From Actinomycetota bacterium (GTDB lineage Bacteria > Actinomycetota > Acidimicrobiia > Acidimicrobiales > Ilumatobacteraceae): a stretch of DNA of 58,308 bases. This document shows positions 8,353 to 48,581 of the stretch, in pieces. A program made the translations under genes and the position numbers. The stretch spans positions 1 to 58,308 of the forward strand of contig SYAZ01000034.1 of assembly GCA_005788815.1 (NCBI GenBank), given 5' to 3'. Numbering within the stretch: the first letter of the stretch is position 1; each line of letters starts with the position of its first letter. The notes beneath the pieces are model-generated. The model made no database searches. It saw only the letters and a program-made list of their open reading frames with translations, and was not told the origin of the DNA.

Positions 8353-9237
8353 ATGACACAACTTCGGATTGCGACTCGCTCGAGTGCTCAGGCACGAACT
8401 CAAGCAGAGAATATCGGCGCACTCATTGAGCGCATGTCCCCGGGTGTTTCTGTTAAATATGTGTTTGTCGATACGCACGGAGATGTAAACCAAACCACTC
8501 CACTTCACCAAATGGGTGGACAGGGCGTGTTCGTAAAAGAAGTGCAACGTGCTGTTGTCGATGGAGCTGCCGATATTGCTGTGCATTCTGCAAAAGATTT
8601 GCCATCACAAACTGCGGACGGTTTGGTGATTGCCGCAGTGGGGGAACGTCGTACACCAAACGATGCACTTATTGGTAGATCATTAGACGATCTTGCCACG
8701 GGCGCAACTGTTGCGACTGGCTCGGTGCGACGCCGTGCTCAATTGATGCGTATGCGTCCCGATTTAAAATTTGTTGACCTTCGTGGAAATATTCAGACTC
8801 GATTGTCAAAGATTCCAGATGGTGGAGCCATTGTGATGGCCGTTGCTGCACTTGAGATTTTGGGCATGACTGAGCACATTGCACAGATGCTCGACATTGA
8901 TGTTGCTGTGCCGATGGTTGGTCAAGGTTCGGTGGCCGTCGAAGCGCGATCAGATGACAAGACAACATGTGAAATTTTGTCTGCGATAGATCATCTGGCG
9001 AGTCGATATGCCGTGGAAACCGAACGTGCATTCCTTGCTGAACTCGGCGCCGGCTGTTCATTGCCAGTGGGTGCGCATCTCACAAAAGATGGTATGTTCC
9101 ACGCGTTCATGGCAACCGATGATTGTTCTGATTCAGTACAACTAGTTGGTTCAATTGGTGACACAGACGACAATCTTGCTGTTGGCATTGCAGCAGCGCA
9201 CGAATGTCGCACTCGCTTGGCAGAAGTTACAGAGTAA
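8353..9237 (+). CDS. hemC: Porphobilinogen deaminase (hydroxymethylbilane synthase)
   Basis: 294 residues. It polymerises four porphobilinogens to hydroxymethylbilane on a dipyrromethane cofactor. LRIATRSSAQARTQA at the N-terminus, GVFVKEVQRAVVDGAADIAVHSAKDLP (58-84), TGSVRRRAQL (122-131) with the substrate-binding arginines, and RGNIQTRLSK are all conserved. Cys235 in LGAGCSLPVG is the cofactor attachment residue. The stop codon TAA (9235-9237) is followed directly by the hemD ATG at 9238 with no spacer, indicating translational coupling. Confidence 0.97.
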   Translation: MTQLRIATRSSAQARTQAENIGALIERMSPGVSVKYVFVDTHGDVNQTTPLHQMGGQGVFVKEVQRAVVDGAADIAVHSAKDLPSQTADGLVIAAVGERRTPNDALIGRSLDDLATGATVATGSVRRRAQLMRMRPDLKFVDLRGNIQTRLSKIPDGGAIVMAVAALEILGMTEHIAQMLDIDVAVPMVGQGSVAVEARSDDKTTCEILSAIDHLASRYAVETERAFLAELGAGCSLPVGAHLTKDGMFHAFMATDDCSDSVQLVGSIGDTDDNLAVGIAAAHECRTRLAEVTE

Positions 9238-19351: not shown

Positions 19352-19801
19352 ATGAGTCAGTACCTTCCCATTTTGGCGTTAACGGTGCTGGCGGTTCTTT
19401 TCGCATTAATTAGCCTCATTGCCTCTCGGTTGTTGGCACCAAACCGTCCCAGTTCAGCAAAAGAAGCACCATACGAATGCGGCATCGTTCCAAGCCGTGA
19501 ACCACCAGAACGTTTTCCTGTGAGTTTCTATGTCATTGCAATGCTGTTCATCATGTTCGACATTGAAATCATTTTTGCTTATCCATATGCAGTCGACCGT
19601 GAATTCCTTGGCTCTTTCGCATTCTTCGAGATGCTGGCATTTAGCGCGGTCTTCTTTGTCGCTTTTGTGTACATGGTTGCGCGCGGTGCTCTTGAATGGG
19701 GCCCCATCATGCGTTCTGCAAAACTTGATCCTCAATCGAGTACTGGTGTGCAGGCTAGCGGAACTGTGCGTGTTGTTGGTCGTGAAGGCCGAGCCGCCTG
19801 A
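19352..19801 (+). CDS. nuoA: NADH-quinone oxidoreductase subunit A (operon 1)
   Basis: 149 residues, three TM helices (about 5-25, 60-80, 91-111). The conserved loop between helices 1 and 2 has YECG with Cys43, equivalent to the ND3 loop cysteine near the quinone site. [13 protein letters not shown] is the second signature. A 30-residue C-terminal tail follows the last helix. It is the first gene of the 14-gene operon, 4 bp after the upstream membrane-protein gene, and it overlaps nuoB by one base. Compare the operon 2 copy, which has Ser at the cysteine position. Confidence 0.95.
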
Positions 19802-20382
19802 TGGGATTAGTTCAGAACGTTCTTGACGATGGACTAGGTGGCATCGAGCACAACTTTGTCACTGCGCGCATCGAAGACTTAGTCAAGTGGGCACGTTCAC
19901 GTTCTAGCTGGGGCGCTTCGTTCGGTCTTGCTTGTTGCGCAATTGAAATGATGGGAACCGGTGCCTCGCACTACGACTTGTCTCGTTTCGGAATGGAAGT
20001 GTTTCGTGCATCTCCTCGCCAGGCAGACATCATGATTGTCGCTGGGCGCGTTAGCCAAAAAATGGCTCCTGTGTTGCGCCAGGTGTACGACCAAATGATG
20101 GAACCCAAGTGGGTCATCTCTATGGGTGTTTGTGCATCAAGTGGAGGCATGTTCAACAACTACGCAATTGTGCAAGGTGTCGATCAGATCGTGCCCGTCG
20201 ATGTTTATGCACCAGGTTGCCCTCCAACACCAGAGACATTGATTCATGCCATCGAGACATTGCATGAATTGATTGAAGATGGCGAAATCATGCGTCGTCG
20301 TGCATCAAATAATGGTGGCGCAGGAATTCAACTCACTGAAAGCGCAATCGCTGCTGCTCCTGTCACGCTTGGAACGAAGTAA
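19801..20382 (+). CDS. nuoB: NADH-quinone oxidoreductase subunit B (operon 1)
   Basis: 193 residues. It carries the N2 [4Fe-4S] cluster, the last in the chain to quinone. The tandem cysteines are in [10 protein letters not shown], the third in [11 protein letters not shown] and the fourth in [24 protein letters not shown] and the [18 protein letters not shown] stretch are conserved. It is peripheral and cytoplasmic, at the membrane junction next to NuoD. It overlaps the nuoA stop by one base, and nuoC follows 2 bp later. The C-terminus carries about 20 extra residues rich in Ala and Asn. Confidence 0.97.
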
Positions 20383-20384
20383 CC

Positions 20385-20888
20385 ATGAGTGACGTGGTTG
20401 AAACAGTAGATAATGCTGTAGAGACTCAGCATGGTTGTCCAGTTCTTGATTCGCTTGGACAACGAGTTTTGCTTGCTACCCGTGAGAATTACATTTCAGT
20501 AGTCAAAGCACTTGTTGATGAGGGATACACCATGTGTATTGATCTCACTGGTGTTGACTATCTCAATTTGCCCAATCGCACGGTTGGCCATGGTGTCGCA
20601 CCAGAGCGTTTTGAAGTAGTAGCCAATTTCCTGTCACTCACATTGCGTCAACGCATTCGTGTACGCGTGCAGATTCCAGAGAACGATGCCACGTTGCCTT
20701 CTTTGTTTGACTTGCACCCTGGTACTGAAGCGCATGAACGCGAAACATACGACATGTTCGGAATTTCATTTGACGGCCACCCAGACATGACTCGCATCTT
20801 GATGCCAGAAGATTGGGATGGTCACCCTCTTCGTAAGGATTACGACCAAGGTTCTATTCCGGTTCAATTCAAAGGTTCACACTCATGA
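20385..20888 (+). CDS. nuoC: NADH-quinone oxidoreductase subunit C (operon 1)
   Basis: 167 residues, the 30-kDa subunit of the hydrophilic arm. The family signature is HPGTEAHERETYDMFGISFDGHPDMTRILMP, followed by DGHPLRKDY. It is a stand-alone gene, not fused to nuoD as in enterobacteria. The start ATG 20385 is 2 bp after nuoB, and the stop overlaps nuoD by 4 bp (ATGA). It contributes no cofactor and acts as scaffold for NuoD and NuoI. Confidence 0.95.
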   Translation: MSDVVETVDNAVETQHGCPVLDSLGQRVLLATRENYISVVKALVDEGYTMCIDLTGVDYLNLPNRTVGHGVAPERFEVVANFLSLTLRQRIRVRVQIPENDATLPSLFDLHPGTEAHERETYDMFGISFDGHPDMTRILMPEDWDGHPLRKDYDQGSIPVQFKGSHS

Positions 20889-22213
20889 CCATTGTTTCAG
20901 CCGGAACAGACGAGGGCGGTCAAGAACTTCTCTCGCGTAGCGAACTCACTGCAAAGGAATTGTTGCGTGAAGTGGGTTCTGTGTTGCGTCTTAGCGAGAC
21001 CGAAGCAGCCGCGTTGGCTTCAGTTGCGGACGAGGCTCCAGAAGATCAAACAATGATCATCAACATGGGACCACAACACCCAAGTACACACGGTGTCTTG
21101 CGACTCATGTTGGAACTTCAGGGTGAAACTGTTCTGCGTTGCAAGCCGATTATCGGTTACCTGCACACAGGGATGGAAAAGACCGGCGAAGCGCTTTCCT
21201 ATATGCAGGGCGGAACGAACGTAACGCGCATGGATTACTTGTCGCCGTTGAATAACGAACTTGTTTTCTCGATGGCCGTTGAAAAACTCCTTGGCATCGA
21301 TGGCGATATCCCGGAACGTGCAACGTGGATGCGCATGTTGCTGAGCGAACTAAACCGAATGAGCAGCCACCTTTTGTTCCTTGCCACAAACGGCATGGAC
21401 ATCGGCGCAGTATCCATGATGTTGTACGGATGGCGTGAACGCGAAGATGTCCTTCGCTTTTTCCAGAAGGTCACCGGACTTCGCATGAACCACAACTTCA
21501 TCCGCCCTGGTGGTTTGGCTGCAGACTTGCCTGCCGGCTGGCGTGACGATGTTTTGGAAATTCTTGAGAACTTGCCGTCGCGTCTCGAGGAATACGACAT
21601 CTTGATGTCTGGTCAGCCAATTTGGCGCGAGCGTTTGCAGGGCGTAGGTGTTATCACTGCGCAGGAAGCAATTGCACTCGGAGTCACCGGACCAATCCTT
21701 CGTTCGACCGGAGTTCCATGGGATCTTCGCCGTGACATGCCGTACCTTCACTATGACCAACTCGAATTTGATGTGGTTGTCGGGGAGTACGGCGATGCAT
21801 ACGACCGCTATTCGATTCGTTTCAATGAGATCCGTGAGTCAATGCGCATCGTGTATCAAATCCTCGATCGCATGCCATCTGGCGATTACCGAATCCAAGA
21901 CAAAAAAGTTACGCCACCACCACGTGCGCGAATTGATGAGTCCATGGAAGCACTGATTCACCACTTCAAAATCTTTACTGAAGGTTTTAAAGTTCCTGAA
22001 GGCGAAGTGTACGTGAGCATTGAAAGCCCACGTGGAGAAATTGGTTGCTACATCGTGAGTGATGGTTCTTCACATCCGTATCGCATGCACGTTCGTGCAC
22101 CATCGTTTGTCAACATTCAAGCTATGCCTCACATGATGCGTGGTGGGCTCGTCGCCGACGCAGTTGCTGTGATTTCCTCTGTTGACCCTGTTCTGGGAGA
22201 GGTTGATCGCTGA
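20885..22213 (+). CDS. nuoD: NADH-quinone oxidoreductase subunit D (operon 1)
   Basis: 442 residues, the 49-kDa quinone-site subunit. The quinone-loop motif is GPQHPSTHG (62-70) with the conserved His. GYLHTGMEK (91-99) has Thr95 where the mitochondrial subunit has the arginine dimethylated by NDUFAF7. RMDYLSPLNNE (115-125) keeps the quinone-head-group tyrosine at Tyr118. The C-terminal end GEVDR is typical. The N-terminus is about 55 residues longer than the minimal protein. It overlaps nuoC by 4 bp and nuoE by one base. Confidence 0.96.
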   Translation: MTIVSAGTDEGGQELLSRSELTAKELLREVGSVLRLSETEAAALASVADEAPEDQTMIINMGPQHPSTHGVLRLMLELQGETVLRCKPIIGYLHTGMEKTGEALSYMQGGTNVTRMDYLSPLNNELVFSMAVEKLLGIDGDIPERATWMRMLLSELNRMSSHLLFLATNGMDIGAVSMMLYGWREREDVLRFFQKVTGLRMNHNFIRPGGLAADLPAGWRDDVLEILENLPSRLEEYDILMSGQPIWRERLQGVGVITAQEAIALGVTGPILRSTGVPWDLRRDMPYLHYDQLEFDVVVGEYGDAYDRYSIRFNEIRESMRIVYQILDRMPSGDYRIQDKKVTPPPRARIDESMEALIHHFKIFTEGFKVPEGEVYVSIESPRGEIGCYIVSDGSSHPYRMHVRAPSFVNIQAMPHMMRGGLVADAVAVISSVDPVLGEVDR

Positions 22214-36996: not shown

Positions 36997-37038
36997 AAGT
37001 TGGGGGCATTGTGAGCGCCCGTAGTAGTTTTGGAAGTG

Positions 37039-37404
37039 ATGTCCCCGTTCCTACGGTCTTATCTCACTGTTGTGTGGTTTGGCCTCGCCGCCTTTTTGAT
37101 TGCTGGTTTGCTCCTTGGTGTCTCTGCACTTATTCGCCCGAACAAGCCCAATCCAGAAAAGTTGCTCACCTATGAAAGTGGTGTGGACCCAGTGGGTGAC
37201 GGTTGGTCTCAGAGTCAGATTCGTTACTACGTGTTTGCTCTCCTTTTTGTGATTTTTGATGTTGAAGCAGTATTTATTTTTCCGTGGGCAACTCAGTTGG
37301 AGCGGTACGCAGGTTTTGGTCTCGTTGAGATGGGCGTCTTTGTTGGCATCCTCTTGCTTGGCCTTGTCTATGCGTGGCGCAAAGGCGTCTTGCGCTGGGT
37401 TTAG
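37039..37404 (+). CDS. nuoA: NADH-quinone oxidoreductase subunit A (operon 2)
   Basis: 121 residues from ATG 37039; the frame also has TTG 37030 and GTG 37036 just upstream. Three TM helices. The loop reads [11 protein letters not shown] (45-55) with Ser47 where operon 1 has Cys43. [24 protein letters not shown] is close to cyanobacterial/plastid NdhC as I remember it. No C-terminal tail, unlike the operon 1 copy. It is the first gene of the 11-gene operon; nuoB follows 19 bp later. Confidence 0.94.
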
Positions 37405-37423
37405 GGACAAGGATTTTTCTCGT

Positions 37424-37978
37424 ATGGGTCTCGTAGATCGTGGTCGACTCGGCAAGCCACTCACTCAATTGTTCAACCTTGGTCGGTCGTACAGCTTGTG
37501 GGTGTACCAGTGGGGCTTGGCATGTTGTGCAATTGAAATGGGTGCAGCATTCGGCTCTCCGCGTTATGACGTGATGAGACTCGGCGTTATTCCATTACCG
37601 GCATCCCCTCGTCAAGCAGACCTTGTAGTTATTTCAGGAACAGTCACAGACAAGATGGCTCCTGCAATTAAGCGCTTGTATGAACAAATGCCTGAACCGA
37701 AGTATGTGATTTCAATGGGAAGTTGCGCAAACTGCGGCGGACCATATTGGGACAGTTACTCCGTTACTAAAGGTATCGATCAAATCATCCCTGTTGATGT
37801 GTACGTCCCTGGTTGTCCTCCTCGTCCAGAAGCCTTGTTAGAAGGAATTGTTTTGTTGCAGCAACGCATCAAGAACGAAGACATGGGTGCGCGTTGGCGT
37901 GGTGAAGGATTTGTTCCGATGAATATTGATGGCGAGTCAGCAGAGAGGGGAGGTGTTCCCGTTGTCGTCAACAACTGA
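37424..37978 (+). CDS. nuoB: NADH-quinone oxidoreductase subunit B (operon 2)
   Basis: 184 residues from ATG 37424, the first Met matching the family N-terminus (the frame opens earlier inside nuoA). N2 cluster ligands are all present: [26 protein letters not shown] and VPGCPPRPE. An additional cysteine in SCANCGG sits three residues after the third ligand, as in archaeal and NdhK-like proteins. [18 protein letters not shown] is conserved. Thus the cluster that reduces quinone is intact although NuoEFG are absent from the operon. Confidence 0.95.
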
Positions 37979-38615
37979 TTCCACAACTGATGCACCTCGT
38001 GACGAGATTCGTGATTCAGAAATTGCACGTGTTATCGCTGCACTAGATGGCGCTGTCCTTGATTCACTTGTCAAAGCAAATGATGACATGTGGATTCGTG
38101 TTTCTCCAGATGCATGGGTCACCACCGGAAACACATTGAAGTCACTCGGATATTCGTACTTCTGTTTTCTCTCAGCAATCGACTGGATGCCTTCTCCGTT
38201 TGGCAAGGGCGAAGACGATCCCACTGCTCCTCCTAAGGAACGAGAGACCGCTGTCAAGCAGGGGTACGCAGGTGGTTCCACACGTTTCCAAGTACTTGCT
38301 CGTGTCATGCAGCCGTTTTCAAGCCTTGGTATCAACATCAAGGTTGATGTCGACGAGACAGCGATGGCAATTGATTCATGGTGTGGTGTGTTTGCAGGTG
38401 CAAATTGGCACGAACGCGAAACACATGAAATGTTTGGTATCGGTTTTCACGGACATCCTGACCTGCGCAACATGTACCTCCCTACAGATTTTGAAGGTCA
38501 CCCAATGCGCAAAGATTTCCCATTACTTGCGCGCATAGTGAAGCCATGGCCGGGAATTGTTGACGTCGAACCACTTCCAGGTGACGACGATGAAGAGGAA
38601 GGTGCAGCATCATGA
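37962..38615 (+). CDS. nuoC: NADH-quinone oxidoreductase subunit C (operon 2)
   Basis: 217 residues from TTG 37962, chosen because AGGGGAGG (37946-37953) ends 8 nt before it; GTG 37953 lies inside that ribosome site. Conserved block: [29 protein letters not shown] and [11 protein letters not shown]. About 40 residues longer than the operon 1 copy, with an added loop ([20 protein letters not shown]) in the middle and an acidic C-terminus ([14 protein letters not shown]). It overlaps nuoB by 17 bp and nuoD by 4 bp. Confidence 0.92.
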
Positions 38616-39784
38616 GTTTGCTTGGAGATCGTCAGCAATTGGCCTACATTGCGTCGCAAGCCGCAGATGCACGTGTCAACGTCGAACTTGAAACCGAGGG
38701 TATGACCCTCAACATCGGGCCGCAGCACCCTGCTACTCACGGAACTCTTCGCATCATTGCTCGACTTGATGGTGAACAAGTTATTTGGGCAGAGCCATCT
38801 GCTGGGTACATGCATCGGGGTTATGAAAAGCTCACCGAAGTTCGGACCTACCCACAAGTTACTTCATTGGTGAACCGCATCGACTGGTTGGGTTCTTTCG
38901 CAAACGAAGTGCCATTTATTTTGGCCGCAGAAAAGTTGATGGGCGTAGAGGCTCCATCACGTGCTCAGCACATTCGTACCATTCTTTTTGAATTGTCTCG
39001 TATCGCAAACGTTTCATTGTTCCTTGGTGACCTTGGTGTGCAGTTAGGCGCAATTACTCCAGTGTTCTTTGCTTTCCGTGATCGTGAATATGTATTGAAC
39101 CTCATTGAGGGAGCCACTGGTGGACGCTTCCATCCGAACTTTGACCGCATTGGCGGACTAAAAGAAGACTTGCCAGCAGGTTTCATTGACGAAACTCGCA
39201 ACGTTATGAAGAAGTTGCGAACATTCTGCGACCAGATCGAAGACTTGTTGTTTGGCAATGAAATCTTCCAGTCACGTACGCGTGGCATTGGTGTGATTCC
39301 AAAAGATGTTGCATTGCAATACGGCATGTCAGGTGCCAATTTGCGTGCAAGTGGTGTTGATTGGGATCTCCGTCGTGACCAAAGCCTTCCTATGGCATGG
39401 GACAAAGCAGATTGGAAAGTCATTACGCATCCCGATGGTGACTCGTTTGCACGTTGCTGGGTTCGCTTGCAAGAAGTGCGCGAATCAACTCGCATCGTTG
39501 ATCAACTGCTCGACACCATTCCAGCCGGACCTGTCATGGCAAAGGTTCCCAAAATCATCAAGGTGCCTGAAGGTGAAGCGTGGGTCTCAACTGAAAATCC
39601 ACTCGGTGAGATGGGCTACTACGTTGTGTCACAAGGCGACATGGGTCCATTCCGTGTGAAGATTCGTAGTGCGTCGTTCAACAACATTTCTATTGTGCCG
39701 TGGCTGCTGAAGGGTGTCTATGTCCCAGACATCATCACCATCTTGGCATCGTTGTATTTCATTCTCGGAGACATCGATCGTTGA
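38612..39784 (+). CDS. nuoD: NADH-quinone oxidoreductase subunit D (operon 2) with altered quinone site
   Basis: 390 residues. The quinone-loop histidine is kept in GPQHPATHG (36-44). GYMHRGYEK (65-73) has Arg69 at the position dimethylated by NDUFAF7 in mitochondria. RIDWLGSFANE (89-99) has Trp92 where the quinone-head-group tyrosine normally is (Tyr118 in the operon 1 copy). The rest, including GGRFHPNFDRIGGLKEDLPAG and the ending LGDIDR, is canonical. It lacks the 25-residue N-terminal extension of the operon 1 protein. nuoH overlaps its stop by one base. Confidence 0.95.
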   Translation: MSLLGDRQQLAYIASQAADARVNVELETEGMTLNIGPQHPATHGTLRIIARLDGEQVIWAEPSAGYMHRGYEKLTEVRTYPQVTSLVNRIDWLGSFANEVPFILAAEKLMGVEAPSRAQHIRTILFELSRIANVSLFLGDLGVQLGAITPVFFAFRDREYVLNLIEGATGGRFHPNFDRIGGLKEDLPAGFIDETRNVMKKLRTFCDQIEDLLFGNEIFQSRTRGIGVIPKDVALQYGMSGANLRASGVDWDLRRDQSLPMAWDKADWKVITHPDGDSFARCWVRLQEVRESTRIVDQLLDTIPAGPVMAKVPKIIKVPEGEAWVSTENPLGEMGYYVVSQGDMGPFRVKIRSASFNNISIVPWLLKGVYVPDIITILASLYFILGDIDR

Positions 39785-40842
39785 TGAATGCTGTCGTGCT
39801 GTCCACTGACCTTGCTTACTGGGCACAGTCGTTGCTACGCGTCCTTGGTGGACTTGTGGCAGTTCTGTTGCCAGCGGGAACCATTGTGTACCTCTTTTTG
39901 TTCAAGATGATGTCGTTTATGCAGTCTCGTCTTGGCCCAATGGAAGCTGGTCCATACGGCTCGATGCAATTGTTTGCTGAAGTAGGAAAATGGCTGCAAA
40001 AAGAAGACATCTACCCAGCGCGAGCAGATAAGTTCCTTTTCAAGATTGCCCCAATCATTGTGTTGTCCAGCACCTTCTTATTGGTAGCAGTAGTGCCGTT
40101 CGGACCAGATGCATGGTTTACCAATTTTGAAGCGGGCGTCTTTTACATGCTCGCCGTTTCGTCAATTTCAGTTTTGGGCATTTTGATTGCTGGTTGGTCA
40201 AGTGCGAACAAGTACTCACTACTTGGTGGTCTACGTGCTGCTGGTCAATTGATTGCTTATGAACTCCCTATGGTTCTTGCAGTTGTTGGTGTTGTTATTC
40301 AGGCCGGAACTATGAACATGCAAGGCATTGTGGTCGCACAAAATGCGGGGTCTATTTTTGGGTGGGATGGCCTTGGCAACCCATACATATTCACGCAATT
40401 TGTCGGATTTGTGATTTTCATGATTGCGGTGCAAGCAGAACTCACGCAAGCACCTTTCGACATGCCAATCGCTGAATCTGAACTCGTGTCTGGTTACATG
40501 ACCGAGTACTCGGGCTTCCGTTTCCTCATTTTCTTCATTAGTGAATTCGCAACTGCTGGTGTGTTCTCCATGATTGCATCGGTTCTCTTCCTCGGTGGAT
40601 GGGCTGTTCCGTTCTCTTGGTTCGGTTGGACCAACTTGGATGACATTGATAATTGGATGAATGTGGCCGGACCACTCATCTTGTTCACCAAGATGATCGT
40701 GTTGTCTTTCATCATCATGTGGGTGCGATTCTCTTACCCACGTTTTCGTGAAGACCAACTGCAGCGCTTTGCATGGAAAGTTCTGATTCCAGTTTCACTT
40801 GTCAACATCATGCTGACGGCAATTTTCAAGGTGGCATTCTGA
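39784..40842 (+). CDS. nuoH: NADH-quinone oxidoreductase subunit H (operon 2)
   Basis: 352 residues from ATG 39784, which overlaps the nuoD stop by one base; earlier in-frame starts fall inside nuoD. Eight TM helices. The amphipathic segment has [34 protein letters not shown], diverged from the [11 protein letters not shown] form of operon 1. [23 protein letters not shown] carries the E-channel acids. A short loop ([15 protein letters not shown]) faces the same side as in other NuoH. It overlaps nuoI by one base. Confidence 0.94.
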
Positions 40843-41339
40843 TGGCTAAGCCCAAAGTTCCAGGTTTATTGAAGGGCCTTGGCGTTACCTTCGGTACGTT
40901 GATGCGCACCGCAACTGAAGGTTCAAACACCATTCAGTACCCGCATGAAAAAGAGACACCTCCCATTCGTGCGCGCGGTGTTATCGCATTGCACGAAGGT
41001 AACTGCACGTCGTGCATGCTGTGTGCTCGCTCATGTCCCGACTGGTGCATTTACATCGAAGGTCACAAAGAGTTGGCGCCACCACGTCGCGCTGGTGGCT
41101 CTCCTCGTAAGGTCAACAAACTCGACCGATTTGATATTGACTACGCGCTCTGCATGTATTGCGGGATCTGCGTAGAGGTGTGTCCATTCGATGCACTCTT
41201 CTGGAGCCCAGAATACGAATACTCAGAGCCTCGCATCGCAGATCTTCTGCACGACAAATCAAAACTGGGCGAGTGGATGGAAACTGTTCCAGAAGCCCCA
41301 GAACTTGAAGCCGGAGCGGACAAGAAGGGTAAGAAGTAA
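40842..41339 (+). CDS. nuoI: NADH-quinone oxidoreductase subunit I (operon 2)
   Basis: 165 residues from ATG 40842 overlapping the nuoH stop. Ferredoxin motifs: [15 protein letters not shown] and [15 protein letters not shown], so both N6 clusters are retained. [27 protein letters not shown] is the usual N-terminal region. It ends with a Lys/Glu-rich tail (AGADKKGKK). Without NuoG in this operon, it would be the exposed entry point for an alternative electron donor. It overlaps nuoJ by one base. Confidence 0.94.
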
Positions 41340-41851
41340 TGATTGCTGCTGACCTTCTTGTCGCGCAAAATATTGGCTTTACGATTATCGCCGCAATCAT
41401 GGTGATTGGTGCATTACGTGTTGTCACAACTTCGAACGTTGTGCATGCAGCCCTTTGGCTAGTAGTTGTACTTGCTGGTGCGGCCGCTCAATACGTACTT
41501 CTTGCCGCCGAATTCGTGGCAATCACTCAGGTTCTTGTGTACATCGGAGCTGTCATGGTGTTGTTCCTTTTCGGAACAATGTTGACTCGTGCACGTATTG
41601 GTGCTGAGACAGATCTGAACAATAAGAACTGGTTCATGGGTGTGCCAGTCGCAGTGCTGCTCTTTGCAACTCTTGTTATTGCGCTCAATGATGGTTTCGG
41701 CGATCAGCGTTTGCCATCAGATTCTCCTGTTGTTTCTACTCAACAGTTGTCTGACCAGATTTTTGGGCCCTACTTATTGCCGTTCTGGGCACTGTCGTTT
41801 GTTCTCCTTGCCGCTGTTATTGGGGCCATTGTGCTTTCAAGGAGGGACTAA
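41339..41851 (+). CDS. nuoJ: NADH-quinone oxidoreductase subunit J (operon 2)
   Basis: 170 residues, five TM helices. IIAAIMVIGALRVVTTSNVVHAALWLVVVLAGAAAQYVLLAAEF is the ND6-like start, and ITQVLVYIGAVMVLFLFGTML is helix 3. After a polar loop (RARIGAETDLNNKNW) two further helices follow, ending in LSRRD. It overlaps nuoI by one base, and nuoK starts 3 bp after its stop behind AAGGAGGG. Confidence 0.93.
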   Translation: MIAADLLVAQNIGFTIIAAIMVIGALRVVTTSNVVHAALWLVVVLAGAAAQYVLLAAEFVAITQVLVYIGAVMVLFLFGTMLTRARIGAETDLNNKNWFMGVPVAVLLFATLVIALNDGFGDQRLPSDSPVVSTQQLSDQIFGPYLLPFWALSFVLLAAVIGAIVLSRRD

Positions 41852-41854
41852 ATC

Positions 41855-42154
41855 ATGTTGGTGAATCAGTTCCTTATGCTGGGTGCAGTTTTATTCTGTA
41901 TCGGCGTCTACGGGGTTATTGTTCGCAAGAACGCCGTCATGGTCTTGATGTCTATTGAATTGATTTTGAATTCAGTGAATATCAACTTATTGGCTTTCTC
42001 TTTGCGTAACGGTTCCGTCGATGGCCACACGTTCGCTCTGTATGTCATTGCAGTTGCTGCGGCCGAAGTCGGAGTCGGACTTGCAATGGTTCTCCTTATG
42101 TATCGCAACCGTCGCTCCATCGGACTTGACGAACTCTCAGAGATGAAGGGCTGA
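41855..42154 (+). CDS. nuoK: NADH-quinone oxidoreductase subunit K (operon 2)
   Basis: 99 residues, three TM helices, standard length. VRKNAVMVLMSIELILNSVNINLLAFS contains the helix 2 glutamate, and IAVAAAEVGVGLAMVLLMYRNR contains the helix 3 glutamate. The Shine-Dalgarno AAGGAGGG lies at the end of nuoJ. nuoL begins 4 bp after the stop. Both proton-path glutamates are conserved, so the membrane arm looks functional. Confidence 0.94.
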   Translation: MLVNQFLMLGAVLFCIGVYGVIVRKNAVMVLMSIELILNSVNINLLAFSLRNGSVDGHTFALYVIAVAAAEVGVGLAMVLLMYRNRRSIGLDELSEMKG

Positions 42155-42158
42155 TCAG

Positions 42159-44492
42159 ATGTTGGCAGCAGCGACCGAAATGACAGAGACAGTGTTGTCG
42201 TCTGGTTGGTTCCTAGAGAACGCATGGCTTATCCCCATCATCCCCGCAATCTCATTTGCACTCATCATCTTTTTTGGTAAGCGCATGCCGAAAAAAGGCA
42301 GCGAGTTCGGTGTTGCTTCCATGTTGGGAGCCCTTGTTCTTTCAGCAGGCGCGGCATACCAGTGGATTCAGCGAGTCAATGGTGCTGAAGAAGGCGCCTA
42401 CATCGCACCCATTATCAAGACATGGACATGGTGGCAAAACGATGGTGTCTCACTCGGTATTGGTCAACATGTTGATGGTCTAACAGTCACCATTCTTATT
42501 GTCGTTGCCTTTATCTCTTCACTTGTGCAGATTTACTCGCTCGAATACCTTCGTGGTGACCGTCGATACACACATTTCTTTGCGTCTCTCACGTTGTTCT
42601 CTGCGGGAATGCTCAACATGGTCGTGGCCGAGAACATGATTCAACTCATCCTTGGTTGGGAAATCATGGGTCTGTGCTCGTTCATGTTGATTGGGCATTG
42701 GTGGGAAGAAGGCGCAAATAGCCGCGCTGCCCTCAAGGCATTCTTTACTACGCGTACTGGCGACATTGGTCTGTTGACCGGTACTGCTGTCTTGTACTTC
42801 GCTGCGAACGAGTGGACAACAAAGACACTCGGTGTTTCTGGATTCTCGATTCGTGGTTTGTCATCGTGGGCGCTTTCGGGTGACCCAAGCTCTGCGGCAA
42901 TCACCGTTGGTGCTGTGGCTTTATTCATTGCTGCAATCGGCAAGAGTGGCCAGTTCCCACTTCACACCTGGTTGCCAGACGCAATGGCTGGTCCTACACC
43001 TGTTAGTTCTTTGCTGCACTCAAGCACCATGGTTGTTGCCGGCGTGTTCCTTGTTGCTCGCGTATATCCAGTGTTCTTCGAAGGCCTCAACATTCTCGGT
43101 TCAGGCGCCAACTTCATTGTGATCATCGGTGGCATCACCATTGTGATTGCTGCTCTTCTCGCATTCGTCCAAACAGACATCAAGAAGGTGTTGGCGTATT
43201 CAACTGTGAGCCAGTTGGGATACATGATGATGGGACTTGGTGCTGGAGCTTGGTTGCCAGCTGTCTTCCACATCTTTACGCACGCGTTCTTTAAGGCTTG
43301 TTTGTTCTTGGGCGCCGGCTCTATTAGCCACAGCTCTTCGCATCACTCGTTTGAAATGAAGAAAGACATGGGCGGACTGCGCAAGTTCATGCCAATTACT
43401 TTCACCACTTGGATCATTTCAACACTGGCTTTGTGCGGCGTCTTCCCATTCTCTGGTTTCTTCTCTAAAGACGAAATCATCGACAACGTGGGTTACTCCG
43501 GATACAACGTGTTCATGATTGTGGGTCTAGCGGGTGCATTCCTCACAGCTGCCTACATGACGCGTGCGACGTACCTCACCTTCTTTGGTTCGCCGCGTGG
43601 CGCATCTGCTGGCGAGCATCATGAAGAAGAAGGTCATGGTGCACATGCAAGTCATGACGATGATGCTCACGACTCTCATGACACTCACGGTCACGATGCA
43701 CATGCATCACATGGTCCACACGAATCTGGTTGGCTCATTACTGCGCCTCTCATCATCTTGGCCACCCTTGCGTTGAGTTCTGGTTTCTTGAACGCAGTTC
43801 CATTTGGTCATGGCTGGGAGAACTTGAAGAAGTGGGTAGAACCAAGTGCTGAAGTCATCAACCCCACAGGTGTTGCTTATGTCGTCGGCGGCGCAGGTGA
43901 AGCACGAGTTACTGCCATTGAAGCTGGCTATGAAAAGTCTGATTGCGGAACCAAGACTCCTGTAGATGGCGTGTGTGTTGCGCCGCAACTTAAACATGCG
44001 CCATTCAAATGGTCGAAGGCTGCTTTGTCCACGTTCATCGTTTTTGCAGGCATGTTGTCTAGTTGGTTCGTGTGTGTTCAGTTGTATGGACGTAAGAACA
44101 AAAAACTTGTTGGTCTCACTGAGCGCAACAAGGCATTGGGTGCGGGGTACAAGTTCCTGTTGAACAAGTACTACCTAGACGCCTTGTACGAAAACGTGAT
44201 CGTACGTGCCATCGCGCATCCAATTGCGCGCGGTGCGTATTGGATCAACCAAAACATTCTCGACGGCATCGTCAATGGCGCAGGTACCAGCGCCAAGACC
44301 GTTGCTGGTTGGGTGTATCGCAATGTCGATCAGAAACTGGTCGACGGTGCAGTGAATAGTTCGGGCAACGCAGCGCAAGCAGCGGGCGGCTCCCTACAAC
44401 CTGTTCAGTCCGGAAAAGTCAATATGTATGGAGCGTTGTTGTTCGGCTCAGCCGCCATCGGCGCTCTCATACTCGTCATCATTAATACCTGA
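42159..44492 (+). CDS. nuoL: NADH-quinone oxidoreductase subunit L (operon 2), enlarged, His-rich
   Basis: 777 residues, about 140 longer than the operon 1 copy. Core motifs: ILGWEIMGLCSFMLIGHWWEE, GKSGQFPLHTWLPDAMAGPTPVSSLLHSSTMVVAGV with the channel Lys, and TDIKKVLAYSTVSQLGYM. Insertion 1 (about residues 483-522) has 12 histidines among Asp/Glu/Ala. Insertion 2 (about 565-612) includes Cys596 and Cys606 in a hydrophilic loop that could form a disulfide. The C-terminal region has the anchor helix after a lateral-helix region (NQNILDGIVNGAGTSAK). nuoM follows 14 bp later. Confidence 0.94.
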   Translation: MLAAATEMTETVLSSGWFLENAWLIPIIPAISFALIIFFGKRMPKKGSEFGVASMLGALVLSAGAAYQWIQRVNGAEEGAYIAPIIKTWTWWQNDGVSLGIGQHVDGLTVTILIVVAFISSLVQIYSLEYLRGDRRYTHFFASLTLFSAGMLNMVVAENMIQLILGWEIMGLCSFMLIGHWWEEGANSRAALKAFFTTRTGDIGLLTGTAVLYFAANEWTTKTLGVSGFSIRGLSSWALSGDPSSAAITVGAVALFIAAIGKSGQFPLHTWLPDAMAGPTPVSSLLHSSTMVVAGVFLVARVYPVFFEGLNILGSGANFIVIIGGITIVIAALLAFVQTDIKKVLAYSTVSQLGYMMMGLGAGAWLPAVFHIFTHAFFKACLFLGAGSISHSSSHHSFEMKKDMGGLRKFMPITFTTWIISTLALCGVFPFSGFFSKDEIIDNVGYSGYNVFMIVGLAGAFLTAAYMTRATYLTFFGSPRGASAGEHHEEEGHGAHASHDDDAHDSHDTHGHDAHASHGPHESGWLITAPLIILATLALSSGFLNAVPFGHGWENLKKWVEPSAEVINPTGVAYVVGGAGEARVTAIEAGYEKSDCGTKTPVDGVCVAPQLKHAPFKWSKAALSTFIVFAGMLSSWFVCVQLYGRKNKKLVGLTERNKALGAGYKFLLNKYYLDALYENVIVRAIAHPIARGAYWINQNILDGIVNGAGTSAKTVAGWVYRNVDQKLVDGAVNSSGNAAQAAGGSLQPVQSGKVNMYGALLFGSAAIGALILVIINT

Positions 44493-44506
44493 GGGAGCAC
44501 ATAGGC

Positions 44507-46042
44507 ATGCTTAGCGAACACAACTGGGTGCTATCAGTCGGCACATTCTTGCCACTGGTAGGAGTCATCATCATGCTTTTTCTGCCGAAGGCAGACGAAG
44601 CATTAACTAAGGCAGTAGGCATCATCACAGCAGCGGCAACGCTTGCTGTCGGTGTCTTCACCTTGATTCAGTTTGACTACGACCGCGCTGGAGAGATGCA
44701 GTTCGTGGCCGACCACGAATGGATCTCTGTCATCAAGTCGTCGTACTTCATTGGATTAGACGGAATCAGCCTTCCTTTGTATTTCCTCTCAATGGTCATC
44801 ACTTTGTTGGTCATGATTTACAGCTGGAACCATGTTCCTTCACCAGGTAATCCAAAGGCATTCTTCATCTTGATGTTGATATTGCAAACGGGTATGGCCG
44901 GAACATTCATCTCTCGTGACCTCATCTTGTTCTTCGTGTTCTTTGAACTTGTTCTGTTGCCGATGTATTTCATGATTGGTGTTTGGGGTGGCGAAAATCG
45001 CCAGTACGCATCACTCAAGTTCTTCTTGTACACCATGTTTGGCTCTGCACTTATGTTGGTGGCTTTCCTCGCATTGTTCTTCAAGACTGGTGCAGAGAGT
45101 TTCTCTATTCCGTATCTCATCGAGAATGGGTTAAACATTTCTCGTACAACCCAGATCTGGATCTTCGGCGGCATGTTTGTTGGCTTCGCAGTCAAAGTGC
45201 CAATGTTCCCGTTCCACACGTGGTTGCCTGATGCGCATACGCAAGCACCAACCCAAGGTTCAGTCATCCTGGCTGCAATCTTGTTGAAGTTGGGTACCTA
45301 CGGTTTTGTACGAATCGCAATTCCGATTCTTCCGGAAGCAGCAAAAGCATGGGCGCCCTACATCGGTGCTCTTGCAGTGATTGGCATCATCTATGGTGCG
45401 CTTGGCTGTCTCGCCCAAACAGATATGAAGCGTTTGATTGCGTTCTCATCAGTTGCTCACATGGGTTACGTCATGTTGGGTATCTCAACATTGACATCGT
45501 TCGGTATGAACGCAGCGATGTTTGGAATGGTTGCTCACGGTTTGATTACCGGCATGTTGTTCTTTGTTGCAGGTTCCGTGAAAGAGCGTTACCACACTCT
45601 TGAAATCAAGCGTCTCTCCGGCATGTTGTTACAAGTGCCAAAACTTGGCTGGATCATGGGCTTTTGTGCGATGGCTTCTCTTGGTCTTCCAGGCCTTGCA
45701 GGTTTCTGGGGTGAATTCCCCGCGATTCTCTCTGCATATCAACCAGCCGACGGGTTGCCGGTGGAGGTTTTCCGCGCATACATGGTGATTGCTGCAATCG
45801 GAACTGTGTTTGCAGCTGGTTATCTGTTGTGGATGTTCCAGCGCACAGCGTTTGGTGAGCCAACTGCAGAGTTCTCACCAGGTCATGGTCACGACGAAGA
45901 CATTCATGATGTCAACAAGTTTGAGTGGGTGGCATGGTCACCTTTGCTGATTGCCATCGTGGTCTTTGGTGTGTACCCACAACTGATGTTCAAAGTTCTC
46001 GACCCAGCTGTGGGCGTCACATTGAAGGCTTTCGGAGGCTGA
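44507..46042 (+). CDS. nuoM: NADH-quinone oxidoreductase subunit M (operon 2)
   Basis: 511 residues. FFVFFELVLLPMYFMIGVWGG with the channel Glu, VKVPMFPFHTWLPDAHTQAPTQGSVILAAILLKLGTYG, and TDMKRLIAFSSVAHMGYVMLG are the antiporter motifs. A small His/Asp loop (GHGHDEDIHDVN) near the C-terminus echoes the His-rich insertion of NuoL2. The stop is followed 3 bp later by the nuoN GTG, and GGAGG inside the last codons of nuoM supplies its ribosome site. Confidence 0.95.
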   Translation: MLSEHNWVLSVGTFLPLVGVIIMLFLPKADEALTKAVGIITAAATLAVGVFTLIQFDYDRAGEMQFVADHEWISVIKSSYFIGLDGISLPLYFLSMVITLLVMIYSWNHVPSPGNPKAFFILMLILQTGMAGTFISRDLILFFVFFELVLLPMYFMIGVWGGENRQYASLKFFLYTMFGSALMLVAFLALFFKTGAESFSIPYLIENGLNISRTTQIWIFGGMFVGFAVKVPMFPFHTWLPDAHTQAPTQGSVILAAILLKLGTYGFVRIAIPILPEAAKAWAPYIGALAVIGIIYGALGCLAQTDMKRLIAFSSVAHMGYVMLGISTLTSFGMNAAMFGMVAHGLITGMLFFVAGSVKERYHTLEIKRLSGMLLQVPKLGWIMGFCAMASLGLPGLAGFWGEFPAILSAYQPADGLPVEVFRAYMVIAAIGTVFAAGYLLWMFQRTAFGEPTAEFSPGHGHDEDIHDVNKFEWVAWSPLLIAIVVFGVYPQLMFKVLDPAVGVTLKAFGG

Positions 46043-46045
46043 CCC

Positions 46046-47554
46046 GTGCTGAGCACTATTGCTGATGCTGCGTGGTCGGCGCCTGTTATCGACTACCACG
46101 CGCTTGCACCCGAGATTGTTCTCGGGGGTGGCATTGTGCTGCTCCTGTTGTTGGATCTCTTTATTGCAGATGCGAAGAAGTGGGTCCTTACTCCCGTTGC
46201 AAGTTTCACCCTCCTTGCTGCTTTCATTCCAGTACTGACACTGTCGCTGAGTGATGGAGGAGTCCGTTCTCTGTTTGATGGCCGCTATGTAGTTGACGAT
46301 TTCAGTCTTGTACTGAAGGGTTTATTCCTGCTTGCTGGTTATGTGGTGGTGCTGTTGTCTGCAGATCACATTCGTGAGGGCGACTACTACCAAGGCGAGT
46401 ATTGGTTCCTCGTCTTATCGAGCCTTCTAGGAATGGTCATGATGGCGTCTAGCCGCGACCTCATTTCTATTTTCGTCTCGCTCGAGTTCTTGTCAATCCC
46501 GGCGTACATGTTGGCCGCCTGGCGTAAGCGTGACAGTAAAAGCAATGAAGCAGGAATCAAGTACTACTTACTCGGTGTGTTTGCCTCCGCAATCATGTTG
46601 TACGGCATGTCACTTCTTTACGGCATCACTAACTCCACAAAGCTTGTAGACATCGGCGCATACCTCGGTTCAGACATGTCTGCGATTCGCGCAGTTGCGG
46701 TTCTGTTCGTAGTGATTGGTTTTGCATTCAAGATTTCAGCAGTTCCGTTCCATACGTGGGCTCCCGACACTTATCAAGGTGCTCCAACTCCTGTCACTGC
46801 GTTCTTGTCTGTTGCATCGAAGACCGCTGGTTTCGTTGCTCTTGTCACTGTTGTGTACGTCGGATTCCCCGGTTCCAGCGAAGTGTGGCAGCCAGTGTTC
46901 TGGATCCTCTCTGCGCTCACGATGACCGTCGGAAACGTGATGGCTCTGAAGCAAACAAACATCGTTCGTATGTTGGCTTATTCATCAATCGCTCAAGGTG
47001 GCTTCATCCTCATGCCGCTTGCTGCTGCAGGTGAACAAGGTGTTGCAGAGTCCGCTCTGCGCGCTGTAGTCACCTACTTGCTGGTGTATGCAGCAACCAA
47101 CTTGGGAGTCTTTGCAGTCATCATGGCGGTGTCTCGCAAAACACGCAGCGGCGAGATTTCTTCGTACGGTGGTTTGTTCTCATACGCACCAGGCCTTGCA
47201 ACACTGATGACATTGTTTATGGCGTCACTCGCAGGTATTCCACCACTTGGTGGTTGGTTCGGTAAGTTTGCAGCCTTCCAGTCACTTGTCTCTGCACAAA
47301 ACAATTGGGCGTACGCATTGGCCATTATTGGCGGTGTGAACTCTGTTGTGGCATTCGGGTATTACGGAAGCATCTTGCGTGAAATGTGGATGCGCCCCGT
47401 GCCTGACGGCGATTCGTCTCCCGTTCCAATTCAGTCATCGCTCATTGTTGCTTTAGCAATCACCGGTTCTGCAACATTGTTGCTCGGTGTCTTGCCAGGA
47501 ATTGTTATTCACTTCGGTGATCTTGCCGGTCTCGCCGGTGCCTTCGGCGGCTGA
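46046..47554 (+). CDS. nuoN: NADH-quinone oxidoreductase subunit N (operon 2)
   Basis: 502 residues from GTG 46046, 7 nt after GGAGG (46034-46038). About 14 TM helices. FVSLEFLSIPAYMLAAWRKRD, GFAFKISAVPFHTWAPDTYQGAPTPVTAFLSVASK and NIVRMLAYSSIAQGGFIL are conserved. It closes the 11-gene operon. Its 3' end overlaps the MidA-type methyltransferase gene by about 17 bp, so the two are translated from one message. Confidence 0.95.
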   Translation: MLSTIADAAWSAPVIDYHALAPEIVLGGGIVLLLLLDLFIADAKKWVLTPVASFTLLAAFIPVLTLSLSDGGVRSLFDGRYVVDDFSLVLKGLFLLAGYVVVLLSADHIREGDYYQGEYWFLVLSSLLGMVMMASSRDLISIFVSLEFLSIPAYMLAAWRKRDSKSNEAGIKYYLLGVFASAIMLYGMSLLYGITNSTKLVDIGAYLGSDMSAIRAVAVLFVVIGFAFKISAVPFHTWAPDTYQGAPTPVTAFLSVASKTAGFVALVTVVYVGFPGSSEVWQPVFWILSALTMTVGNVMALKQTNIVRMLAYSSIAQGGFILMPLAAAGEQGVAESALRAVVTYLLVYAATNLGVFAVIMAVSRKTRSGEISSYGGLFSYAPGLATLMTLFMASLAGIPPLGGWFGKFAAFQSLVSAQNNWAYALAIIGGVNSVVAFGYYGSILREMWMRPVPDGDSSPVPIQSSLIVALAITGSATLLLGVLPGIVIHFGDLAGLAGAFGG

Positions 47555-48581
47555 TTCCATACGCGCTGCTATCGCAGCGTCTCAAGGAAGTATTCCGTTC
47601 GCGCAGTTCATGGAGAACGCGCTGTACGGTCCTGATGGTTTCTATTCCACTACAGGTCGCGCGGGTAGACGTGGCGATTTCATTACGTCTCCAGAAGTGG
47701 GGCCATTGTTTGGCTATGTCCTGTCGCAAGCAATTGATGCCGTGTGGAGGCGTTTAGGTGAGCCCAGTGGTTTTCAAATAGTAGAAGTGGGTGCTGGGCC
47801 AGGAACCCTCGCGCGTTCAATTATCGCAGCCAGTCCACAGTGCTTAGTGAACGGCAGGTACGTAGCTGTTGAAGTGAGCGAAGAACAACGAACGTTGCAT
47901 CCAGACGGGGTGACATCTACTGGTGTCATGCCCAGCAAGATTGAACATGGTGTCATCATCGCGAATGAATTGCTCGACAATCTGCCATTTGATTTATGGG
48001 TGTATGACGATGGCTGGAGAAATGCTCATGTCATACAACAAGGCGATGGTTTCGCAGAGTTATTGATAACCCAAGATGTTCCAGCCTGTTTACCTTCACG
48101 CGTTCCACACGGCTCGCGTGCACCAGTACACATAAAGGCGACCGAATGGTTGTCCAATGCTCTAGGCATACTGTCCTCGGGAAGTGTGCTCGTTATCGAT
48201 TACTGCACTCCACTAACTGCTGAAGTCGCTTCTATGCCGTGGCGTGAATGGTTGCGCACCTACGCGGGTCATGAACGTGGGGCACACTATTTGCGCAACC
48301 CTGGTGAACAAGACATCACAACACAGGTGTGTATCGACCAGCTTGCTGCGGTGCGAGAGCCAGATGCAGTGCGAACGCAATCGCAGTTCTTGCAGTTGTG
48401 GGGAATTGATGAACTGGTGGAAGAGGGGAAACAGGTGTGGACAGAAAATGCTGCGCGGCCCACATTGGCAGCAATCAAGATGAGAAGCAGAGTTACTGAG
48501 GCAGAGGCACTGCTCGATACGACTGGCCTCGGCAATTTCATGGTTCTCGAATGGTCTCTTGCCTCCACCAATGGCAAGTAG
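47538..48581 (+). CDS. SAM-dependent methyltransferase, MidA/NDUFAF7 family
   Basis: About 347 residues from GTG 47538; GTG 47517 and 47487 are alternatives further inside nuoN. Family marks: IPFAQFMENALYGPDGFYSTTGRAGRRGDFITSPEVGPLFG, with TSPEVGPLFG as the MidA signature, the SAM-binding loop VEVGAGPGTLARSI, YVAVEVSEEQR, and IIANELLDNLPFDLWV. In mitochondria NDUFAF7 dimethylates an arginine of NDUFS2 (=NuoD) and is needed for complex I assembly. The overlap with nuoN of operon 2 makes that role very plausible here. The substrate has not been shown for the bacterial proteins. Confidence 0.88.
   Translation: MPSAADSIRAAIAASQGSIPFAQFMENALYGPDGFYSTTGRAGRRGDFITSPEVGPLFGYVLSQAIDAVWRRLGEPSGFQIVEVGAGPGTLARSIIAASPQCLVNGRYVAVEVSEEQRTLHPDGVTSTGVMPSKIEHGVIIANELLDNLPFDLWVYDDGWRNAHVIQQGDGFAELLITQDVPACLPSRVPHGSRAPVHIKATEWLSNALGILSSGSVLVIDYCTPLTAEVASMPWREWLRTYAGHERGAHYLRNPGEQDITTQVCIDQLAAVREPDAVRTQSQFLQLWGIDELVEEGKQVWTENAARPTLAAIKMRSRVTEAEALLDTTGLGNFMVLEWSLASTNGK

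Follow-up and report, generated by a model that had tools for sequence, protein, structure and literature searches.

The distribution of two genes, nuoD2 and midA, suggests that their products work as a pair in a freshwater actinobacterium and numerous relatives. Our preferred reading, to which we give a probability of roughly 0.77, is that MidA modifies NuoD2, most likely by dimethylating Arg69 before NuoB2 joins, and that NuoD1 is spared in the same organism. The partnership is observed in a residue pattern, an exchange of residues between NuoB and NuoD, co-occurrence, linkage, a relocated gene pair and conserved MidA motifs; the substrate of MidA, the methylation, its timing and its effect on assembly we infer by analogy with other systems.

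Two complex I operons and one methyltransferase gene

The window, by which we mean the whole 58,308-nucleotide stretch analysed, carries two complex I operons with the following features.

19801..20382, + strand: nuoB1, 47.6% identical to NuoB2 over 145 aa
19969-19971, + strand: His codon of NuoB1 in ASHYD, read from the sequence
20047-20049, + strand: Arg83 codon of NuoB1, partner of NuoD1 Thr95, read from the sequence
20885..22213, + strand: nuoD1 of the 14-subunit operon, PF00346, 388 bits; Thr95 codon ACA at 21167-21169
37030..37404, + strand: nuoA2, read by eye, with blastp matches in relatives
37424..37978, + strand: nuoB2 from a putative start, PF01058, scored on a longer ORF from 37256
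37562-37564, + strand: Arg codon of NuoB2 in SPRYD, read from the sequence
37640-37642, + strand: Thr codon of NuoB2, partner of NuoD2 Arg69, read from the sequence
37926..38615, + strand: nuoC2, PF00329, 102 bits
38612..39784, + strand: nuoD2, 49-kDa-type subunit of the EFG-less complex I, PF00346, 264.9 bits, and translation
38816..38818, + strand: Arg69 codon CGG of NuoD2, counterpart of human NDUFS2 Arg85 through the HRGxEK motif
39700..40842, + strand: nuoH2, ORF as listed with a provisional start, PF00146, 338 bits
40773..47554, + strand: nuoI2-J2-K2-L2-M2-N2 block, from NCBIfam and ORFs
40773-41339, 41339-41851 and 41855-42154, + strand: nuoI2, nuoJ2 and nuoK2, NCBIfam
42159-44492, 44507-46042 and 46046-47554, + strand: nuoL2, nuoM2 and nuoN2, NCBIfam
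47538..48581, + strand: midA, NDUFAF7-like methyltransferase, PF02636, 94 bits (ORF from 47487)

Operon 2 has the composition of the EFG-less 11-subunit complex I, with A, B, C, D and H to N present (B, C, D and H by Pfam, I to N by NCBIfam, A by eye and blastp) and E, F and G absent; its genes abut, leaving no space for nuoE, nuoF or nuoG at 37030-47554. As the earlier note had read them, NuoD2 has Arg69 in GYMHRGYEK and NuoD1 has Thr95 in GYLHTGMEK, both codons being confirmed in the sequence, and midA overlaps nuoN2: a start at GTG 47538 gives 17 bp shared with nuoN2, which ends at 47554. In a comparison of 30 of the 40 loci with both genes, one of them from the window's own genome, a GTG at the same offset was shared by 22 of the 29 others and lacking in 6 (1 incomplete). 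In the window's own assembly (1.53 Mb, 112 contigs) PF02636 matches one place and PF00346 the two NuoDs only, all within the window, and the 68% completeness of this assembly leaves room for further midA or nuoD copies.

The 347 aa MidA protein, read from GTG 47538, belongs to the PF02636 family, scoring 94 bits against a curated cut-off of 23.3, and matches the solved structures PDB 4f3n (1.6e-17), 1zkd (2.2e-16) and 5ztz (1.4e-11), the last a Dictyostelium NDUFAF7 homologue whose match covers MidA residues 32-115 only. It has VEVGAGPGTL at residue 82 and NELLDNLP at residue 143, which we take to be the SAM-binding glycine motif and the NE-D motif. The E and D of the latter are invariant in the rows that cover them, over 85 of 97, and the NuoD partner of MidA retains the target arginine in the form of NuoD2 Arg69. 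The family extends beyond proteobacteria, since PF02636 matched in 3 of 14 control genomes (Caulobacter, Synechococcus and Haloferax). The genomes G169, G159, G120 and G089 of families f59/f56 have 6, 3, 2 and 2 PF02636 matches, some of them fragments, which suggests MidA paralogues untied to nuo.

GYMHRGYEK is present in all of the best 80 NuoD2 relatives (87-99% identity), and midA in 34 of the 34 relatives with at least 8.9 kb of sequence after nuoD2; the pattern seen in the window is therefore more than chance. All 80 relatives are MAGs, whose titles often read Ilumatobacteraceae, Acidimicrobiaceae or simply Actinomycetota. Seven loci (L010, L018, L022, L032, L035, L045 and L061), with NuoD2 91-96% identical, come from MAGs titled Bifidobacterium breve, and these titles look wrong.

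In known structures the equivalent of Arg69 sits next to cluster N2, where NuoD meets NuoB. On the NuoB side of this interface the residue is Arg83 in NuoB1 (AGRVSQKM) and Thr in NuoB2 (SGTVTDKM). Mammalian NDUFS2 Arg85 is symmetrically dimethylated, the mark also occurs in Pichia and Paracoccus, and Thermus has Thr (PMC3750175); the Thermus Thr is compensated by Arg83 of Nqo6, the NuoB equivalent, and the equivalent Arg of E. coli is reported to be without dimethylation (PMC8042128). Operon 1 has the Thermus-type pair, NuoD1 Thr95 with NuoB1 Arg83, and the swap thus makes operon 1 Thermus-like and operon 2 mitochondrion-like. The NDUFS2/Nqo4-NDUFS7/Nqo6 switch described in PMC8042128 is identical to the swap that parts the operons here but, unlike there, both states occur within one genome. 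Among 105 loci with both nuoD and nuoB, 74 pair NuoD-Arg with NuoB-Thr, 28 (including one gene, G196, counted twice) pair NuoD-Thr with NuoB-Arg, none is discordant and 3 are unread. In a FastTree phylogeny of 150 NuoDs, Thr forms a single clade with one change from Arg to Thr, and because Arg is the state outside that clade it is probably ancestral. NuoB2 also has an Arg in SPRYD where NuoB1 has a His in ASHYD; this Arg, compared by eye, presumably corresponds to the Arg that is hydroxylated in mammalian PSST/NDUFS7, and a second mitochondrial modification site would also divide the operons.

Co-occurrence and linkage of midA with Arg-type NuoD

The earlier note had proposed that Arg or Thr at this position be tabulated against midA across actinobacterial genomes. 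The table covered 396 Actinomycetota genomes, chosen with a completeness filter of 90 and including that of the window, and gave the correlation, in one direction: 108 of 156 Arg-type genomes have midA, as against 3 of 101 Thr-only genomes (corrected counts; Fisher p 8e-30, which ignores shared ancestry). PF02636 matched 110/396 genomes, a combined Arg/Thr DNA pattern 287/396 and an Arg pattern, which also admits two Ser codons, 180/396; the Thr class holds what subtraction of the Arg matches left (Thr or Pro codons), mostly not read residue by residue, one to three genomes each of f62, f43 and f27 being read as proteins. The 108 pattern-negative genomes were left out, and a 109th, G171, was counted, its NuoD having been found by protein search. 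Also excluded were 29 genomes of f42 and f55, in which the Arg matches were hydrogenase-like in the two examined (30-32% identity), and G043 and G344, which have no NuoD match; G243 was reassigned to Thr-only. Some calls did not survive correction. Six f30 genomes called Thr-only by DNA pattern read HRAAEK, the apparent exceptions G036 and G171 read HRAFEK and HRSVEK, and G260, taken as midA-less, proved to carry a MidA that scores 216 bits with the MidA HMM although PF02636 had passed over it.

Within the window's order midA is present in 29 of 30 Arg-type genomes and in 0 of 16 Thr-only genomes, 12 of the latter being f4. In the sole Arg-type miss, G139, nuoD2 ends a 4.8 kb contig, and G302, of the same order, had no pattern match and no midA found and stands outside the count. 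The remainder of the window's class has midA in 13 of 13. The rule is one-way: midA implies an Arg-type NuoD, with three exceptions (G089, G196 and G244), and Arg does not imply midA. Because midA was not found in 48 of the 156 Arg-type genomes, Arg alone does not call for MidA, and the idea that Arg is in itself a methylation mark was rejected.

Twenty-five of these 48 belong to the HRGFEK clade (f32, f33, f47, f54, f61 and f76), which has an Arg-type operon, and 24 of the 25 also carry a Thr-type NuoD. One member, G040, has a single, unlinked midA. That the clade is mostly midA-less indicates that an Arg-type second complex can work without MidA. Its NuoB reads AHGPRQ or AHAPRQ, where midA-bearing NuoD2-type operons have PASPRQ or close variants, and at the HRGFEK loci among L115-L153 NuoD and NuoB show a paired change near cluster N2. 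Among 122 Arg-type rows, Phe two residues past Arg occurs in 28 without midA and just once alongside midA, in G040. Three of 9 independent pairs differ in Phe, all in the expected direction (sign test p 0.25). A prediction from Phe, set beforehand, came out as expected in six new HRGFEK genomes, all without midA, and missed G403 (HRGMEK, 88% complete), which is also without midA. Phe after Arg may substitute for MidA in this clade, a weak lead drawn from sequence comparison.

Physical linkage follows a lineage pattern. Where both genes are present, midA lies within 25 kb of nuoD in 72 of 108 genomes, about 1.8 being expected at 3 Mb. In the window's class the genes are linked in 37 of 43 (median 9.5 kb), a count that includes an f34 genome, G135, through an acidimicrobial-looking contig; in f41, f68, f53, f50 and f77 together in 26 of 26 (0.4-8.6 kb); in f30 in 7 of 8; and in f29 in 2 of 2. 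The G135 locus (L157, G135:C498), with an 81% identical NuoD2, operon and midA in the unrelated f34, looks like binning contamination. No midA was seen within 25 kb of nuoD in f24 (0/11), f48 (0/7), f59/f56 (0/5) or f25, f39, f43, f33 and f66 taken together (0/6); in all unlinked cases but G159, where they are 26.6 kb apart, the genes are on different contigs. In f48, f39, f25 and G029, midA accompanies other Arg-type NuoDs, beyond the EFG-less operon. In G244 (f61), which has midA and in which no Arg-type NuoD was found, midA adjoins a Thr-type nuoB2, with no other nuo matches at that locus (L282, G244:C21:955000-974900).

The relocated nuoD2-midA pair

At 27 Arg-type nuoD2 loci (10 in f41, 2 in f68, 3 in f53, 1 in f50, 1 in f77, 8 in f30 and 2 in f29) no nuoB match was seen. 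Nothing but nuoD2 and midA gave a true match in the 13 of these with genes listed or in four longer stretches; some stretches are short, the midA of G103 is on another contig, and NuoH2 HMM matches on out-of-frame ORFs over nuoD2 and a NuoG1 HMM match at nuoI were discounted as artefacts. The two genes can be very close: those of G319 overlap by 4 bp, nuoD2 beginning at 8851 and midA running to 8854, and Pfam matches among their neighbours point to a histidine kinase and an ABC transporter. In Nonomuraea gerenzanensis (NZ_LT559118) positions 465769-466680 match MidA and a 76% identical NuoD2, GYMHRGAEK, lies at 471037-472179, with no other nuo matches in 12.9 kb save a NuoH artefact. The record NZ_LT559118.1 (L345), 11.85 Mb and deposited as a plasmid, looks like a chromosome. 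In f30 the midA-nuoD2 pair of G059 (L136) lies beside selA and selB.

The remaining genes of the second operon are found elsewhere in these genomes. A nuoB2 (67-72% identity) was present in 12 of 12 searched, and the second operons of 11 (G059, G319, G023, G060, G311, G092, G082, G327, G021, G260 and G007, drawn from f41, f68, f53, f50, f77, f30 and f29) all lack nuoD by the NuoD HMM and nuoE, F and G by blastp. Ten of the 11 have H2 to M2, and also N2 except in G059, where the contig ends; the other, G060, has A, B, C and I only by blastp. A2 was undetected in G311 and G327 and C2 in G021, and in a short stretch from G006 (L313) C2 is followed directly by H2. The pair and nuoB2 share a contig, 126-414 kb apart, in G319, G023, G060, G311 and G327, and lie on different contigs in the other six. 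With nuoD absent from the second operons and present 0.4-8 kb from midA elsewhere, midA goes with nuoD and not with the remaining nuo2 genes. Of the new evidence gathered here we regard this rearrangement as the strongest.

Genomes of f41 and f68 measure 6-11 Mb and those of f53, f50 and f77 3-4 Mb; we read the former as Streptomyces-like, the latter joining them by trees alone. In the NuoD tree two orphan clades (f30 and the f41 group) share with the HRGFEK clade a fork whose order is not settled, and a third lies in f29, a family whose member G036 has no midA and still carries nuoD within the operon. The main groups of the MidA tree (the window's class, f24 with f59/f56, f30 and the f41 set) match those of NuoD2, in FastTree phylogenies with local support in which the deep order is partly resolved and f29 is placed differently. 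The MidA of G244 is nearest the f41 set and that of G040 nearest f30.

MidA as a probable modifier of NuoD2

The earlier note had proposed that MidA is dedicated to the EFG-less complex I and would not act on the 14-subunit enzyme. In favour of a dedicated role, midA tracks Arg-type NuoD, went undetected in 98 of 101 Thr-only genomes and, in several families, sits beside nuoD2 outside the operon; on the other hand Arg is no methylation mark, and MidA extends beyond the EFG-less operon. The NuoB/NuoD swap, the co-occurrence and the relocated pair lead us to favour MidA as a NuoD2-specific modifier. MidA would take NuoD2, the quinone-site subunit, ahead of assembly and would dimethylate Arg69, a chemistry that we transfer from the enzymes of human and Dictyostelium, which act on the equivalent subunit (PMC3829151, PMC9006661). 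The modified Arg69 would then allow or tune the fit of NuoD2 to NuoB2 at cluster N2. On NuoD1 MidA would be inactive, the residue being Thr and NuoB1 Arg83 supplying the guanidinium.

All of the genetic evidence bears on the partnership and none on the chemistry, so that MidA might also serve as a NuoD2-dedicated chaperone or assembly factor for which methylation of Arg69 is dispensable. The residue after Arg varies while midA is kept (HRAAEK in the six f30 genomes, HRSLEK in G042 and G226), but MidA retains its SAM-binding motif and the invariant E and D, and a methyltransferase-deficient mutant of Dictyostelium is reported not to rescue (PMC9006661), and we consider this improbable. The unlinked midA of f24, f48 and f59/f56, and the additional PF02636 matches of f59/f56, would fit a midA that merely hitchhikes in the operon while serving another protein or RNA. 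That differing arrangements keep midA by nuoD2 alone, apart from other nuo2 genes, and that midA is absent from 16 of 16 Thr-only genomes of the window's order make such hitchhiking highly improbable. Least of all do we expect MidA to modify the two NuoD paralogues alike, at some position apart from Arg69/Thr95; G196, G089 and G244, with midA and only Thr-type NuoD found, would suit it, but nearly all Thr-only genomes (98/101) have no midA found.

If MidA does modify NuoD2 at Arg69, the dimethylation might be a sorting mark, which would license NuoD2 for NuoB2 (Thr) and not for NuoB1 (Arg). The nuoD2-midA pair would then survive as a cassette acting in trans, with the Phe and the changed NuoB loop of the HRGFEK clade replacing the mark. 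We regard this extension as unlikely, though less so than the alternatives above.

Shahul Hameed et al. 2018, as papers citing them have it, reportedly proposed that bacterial (proteobacterial) MidA modifies NuoD; our case differs in lying in Actinomycetota, in being paralogue-specific and in the relocated nuoD2-midA pair. With human NDUFAF7 and Dictyostelium MidA, which act on NDUFS2 Arg85, it shares a PF02636-type methyltransferase, an HR-x-x-EK site and a subunit by cluster N2. It differs in that each cell has two NuoD paralogues, one of which keeps the Arg, in that the modification is predicted, and in that the unit of the Arg-type paralogue contains or adjoins the methyltransferase gene. 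It departs from the EFG-less 11-subunit complex I in that nuoD, in several lineages, is no longer part of the operon and adjoins midA. MidA and its role have been proposed to be conserved in alpha-proteobacteria (PMC9006661), and a 2025 paper gives the function of prokaryotic MidA as inferred in silico only (PMC12455994). Our literature search, which left most subscription papers outside, returned nothing on actinobacterial paralogue specificity or a nuoD2-midA pair and no methylation data for any actinobacterial NuoD; as far as these searches show, the paralogue specificity and the relocated pair are new.

A methylatable and an unmethylatable NuoD in one cell form a built-in internal control, and in the two-gene, Streptomyces-like arrangement midA could be deleted without touching the remaining operon. 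A sorting mark, if true, would mean that two complex I enzymes are kept from mixing and that a two-gene cassette supplies a core subunit in trans. One bacterium, Paracoccus, is reported to bear the dimethyl mark (PMC3750175), and NDUFAF7-like function is usually given an alpha-proteobacterial origin (PMC9006661); MidA as a modifier of NuoD2 would place such a function in a phylum far from the alpha-proteobacteria.
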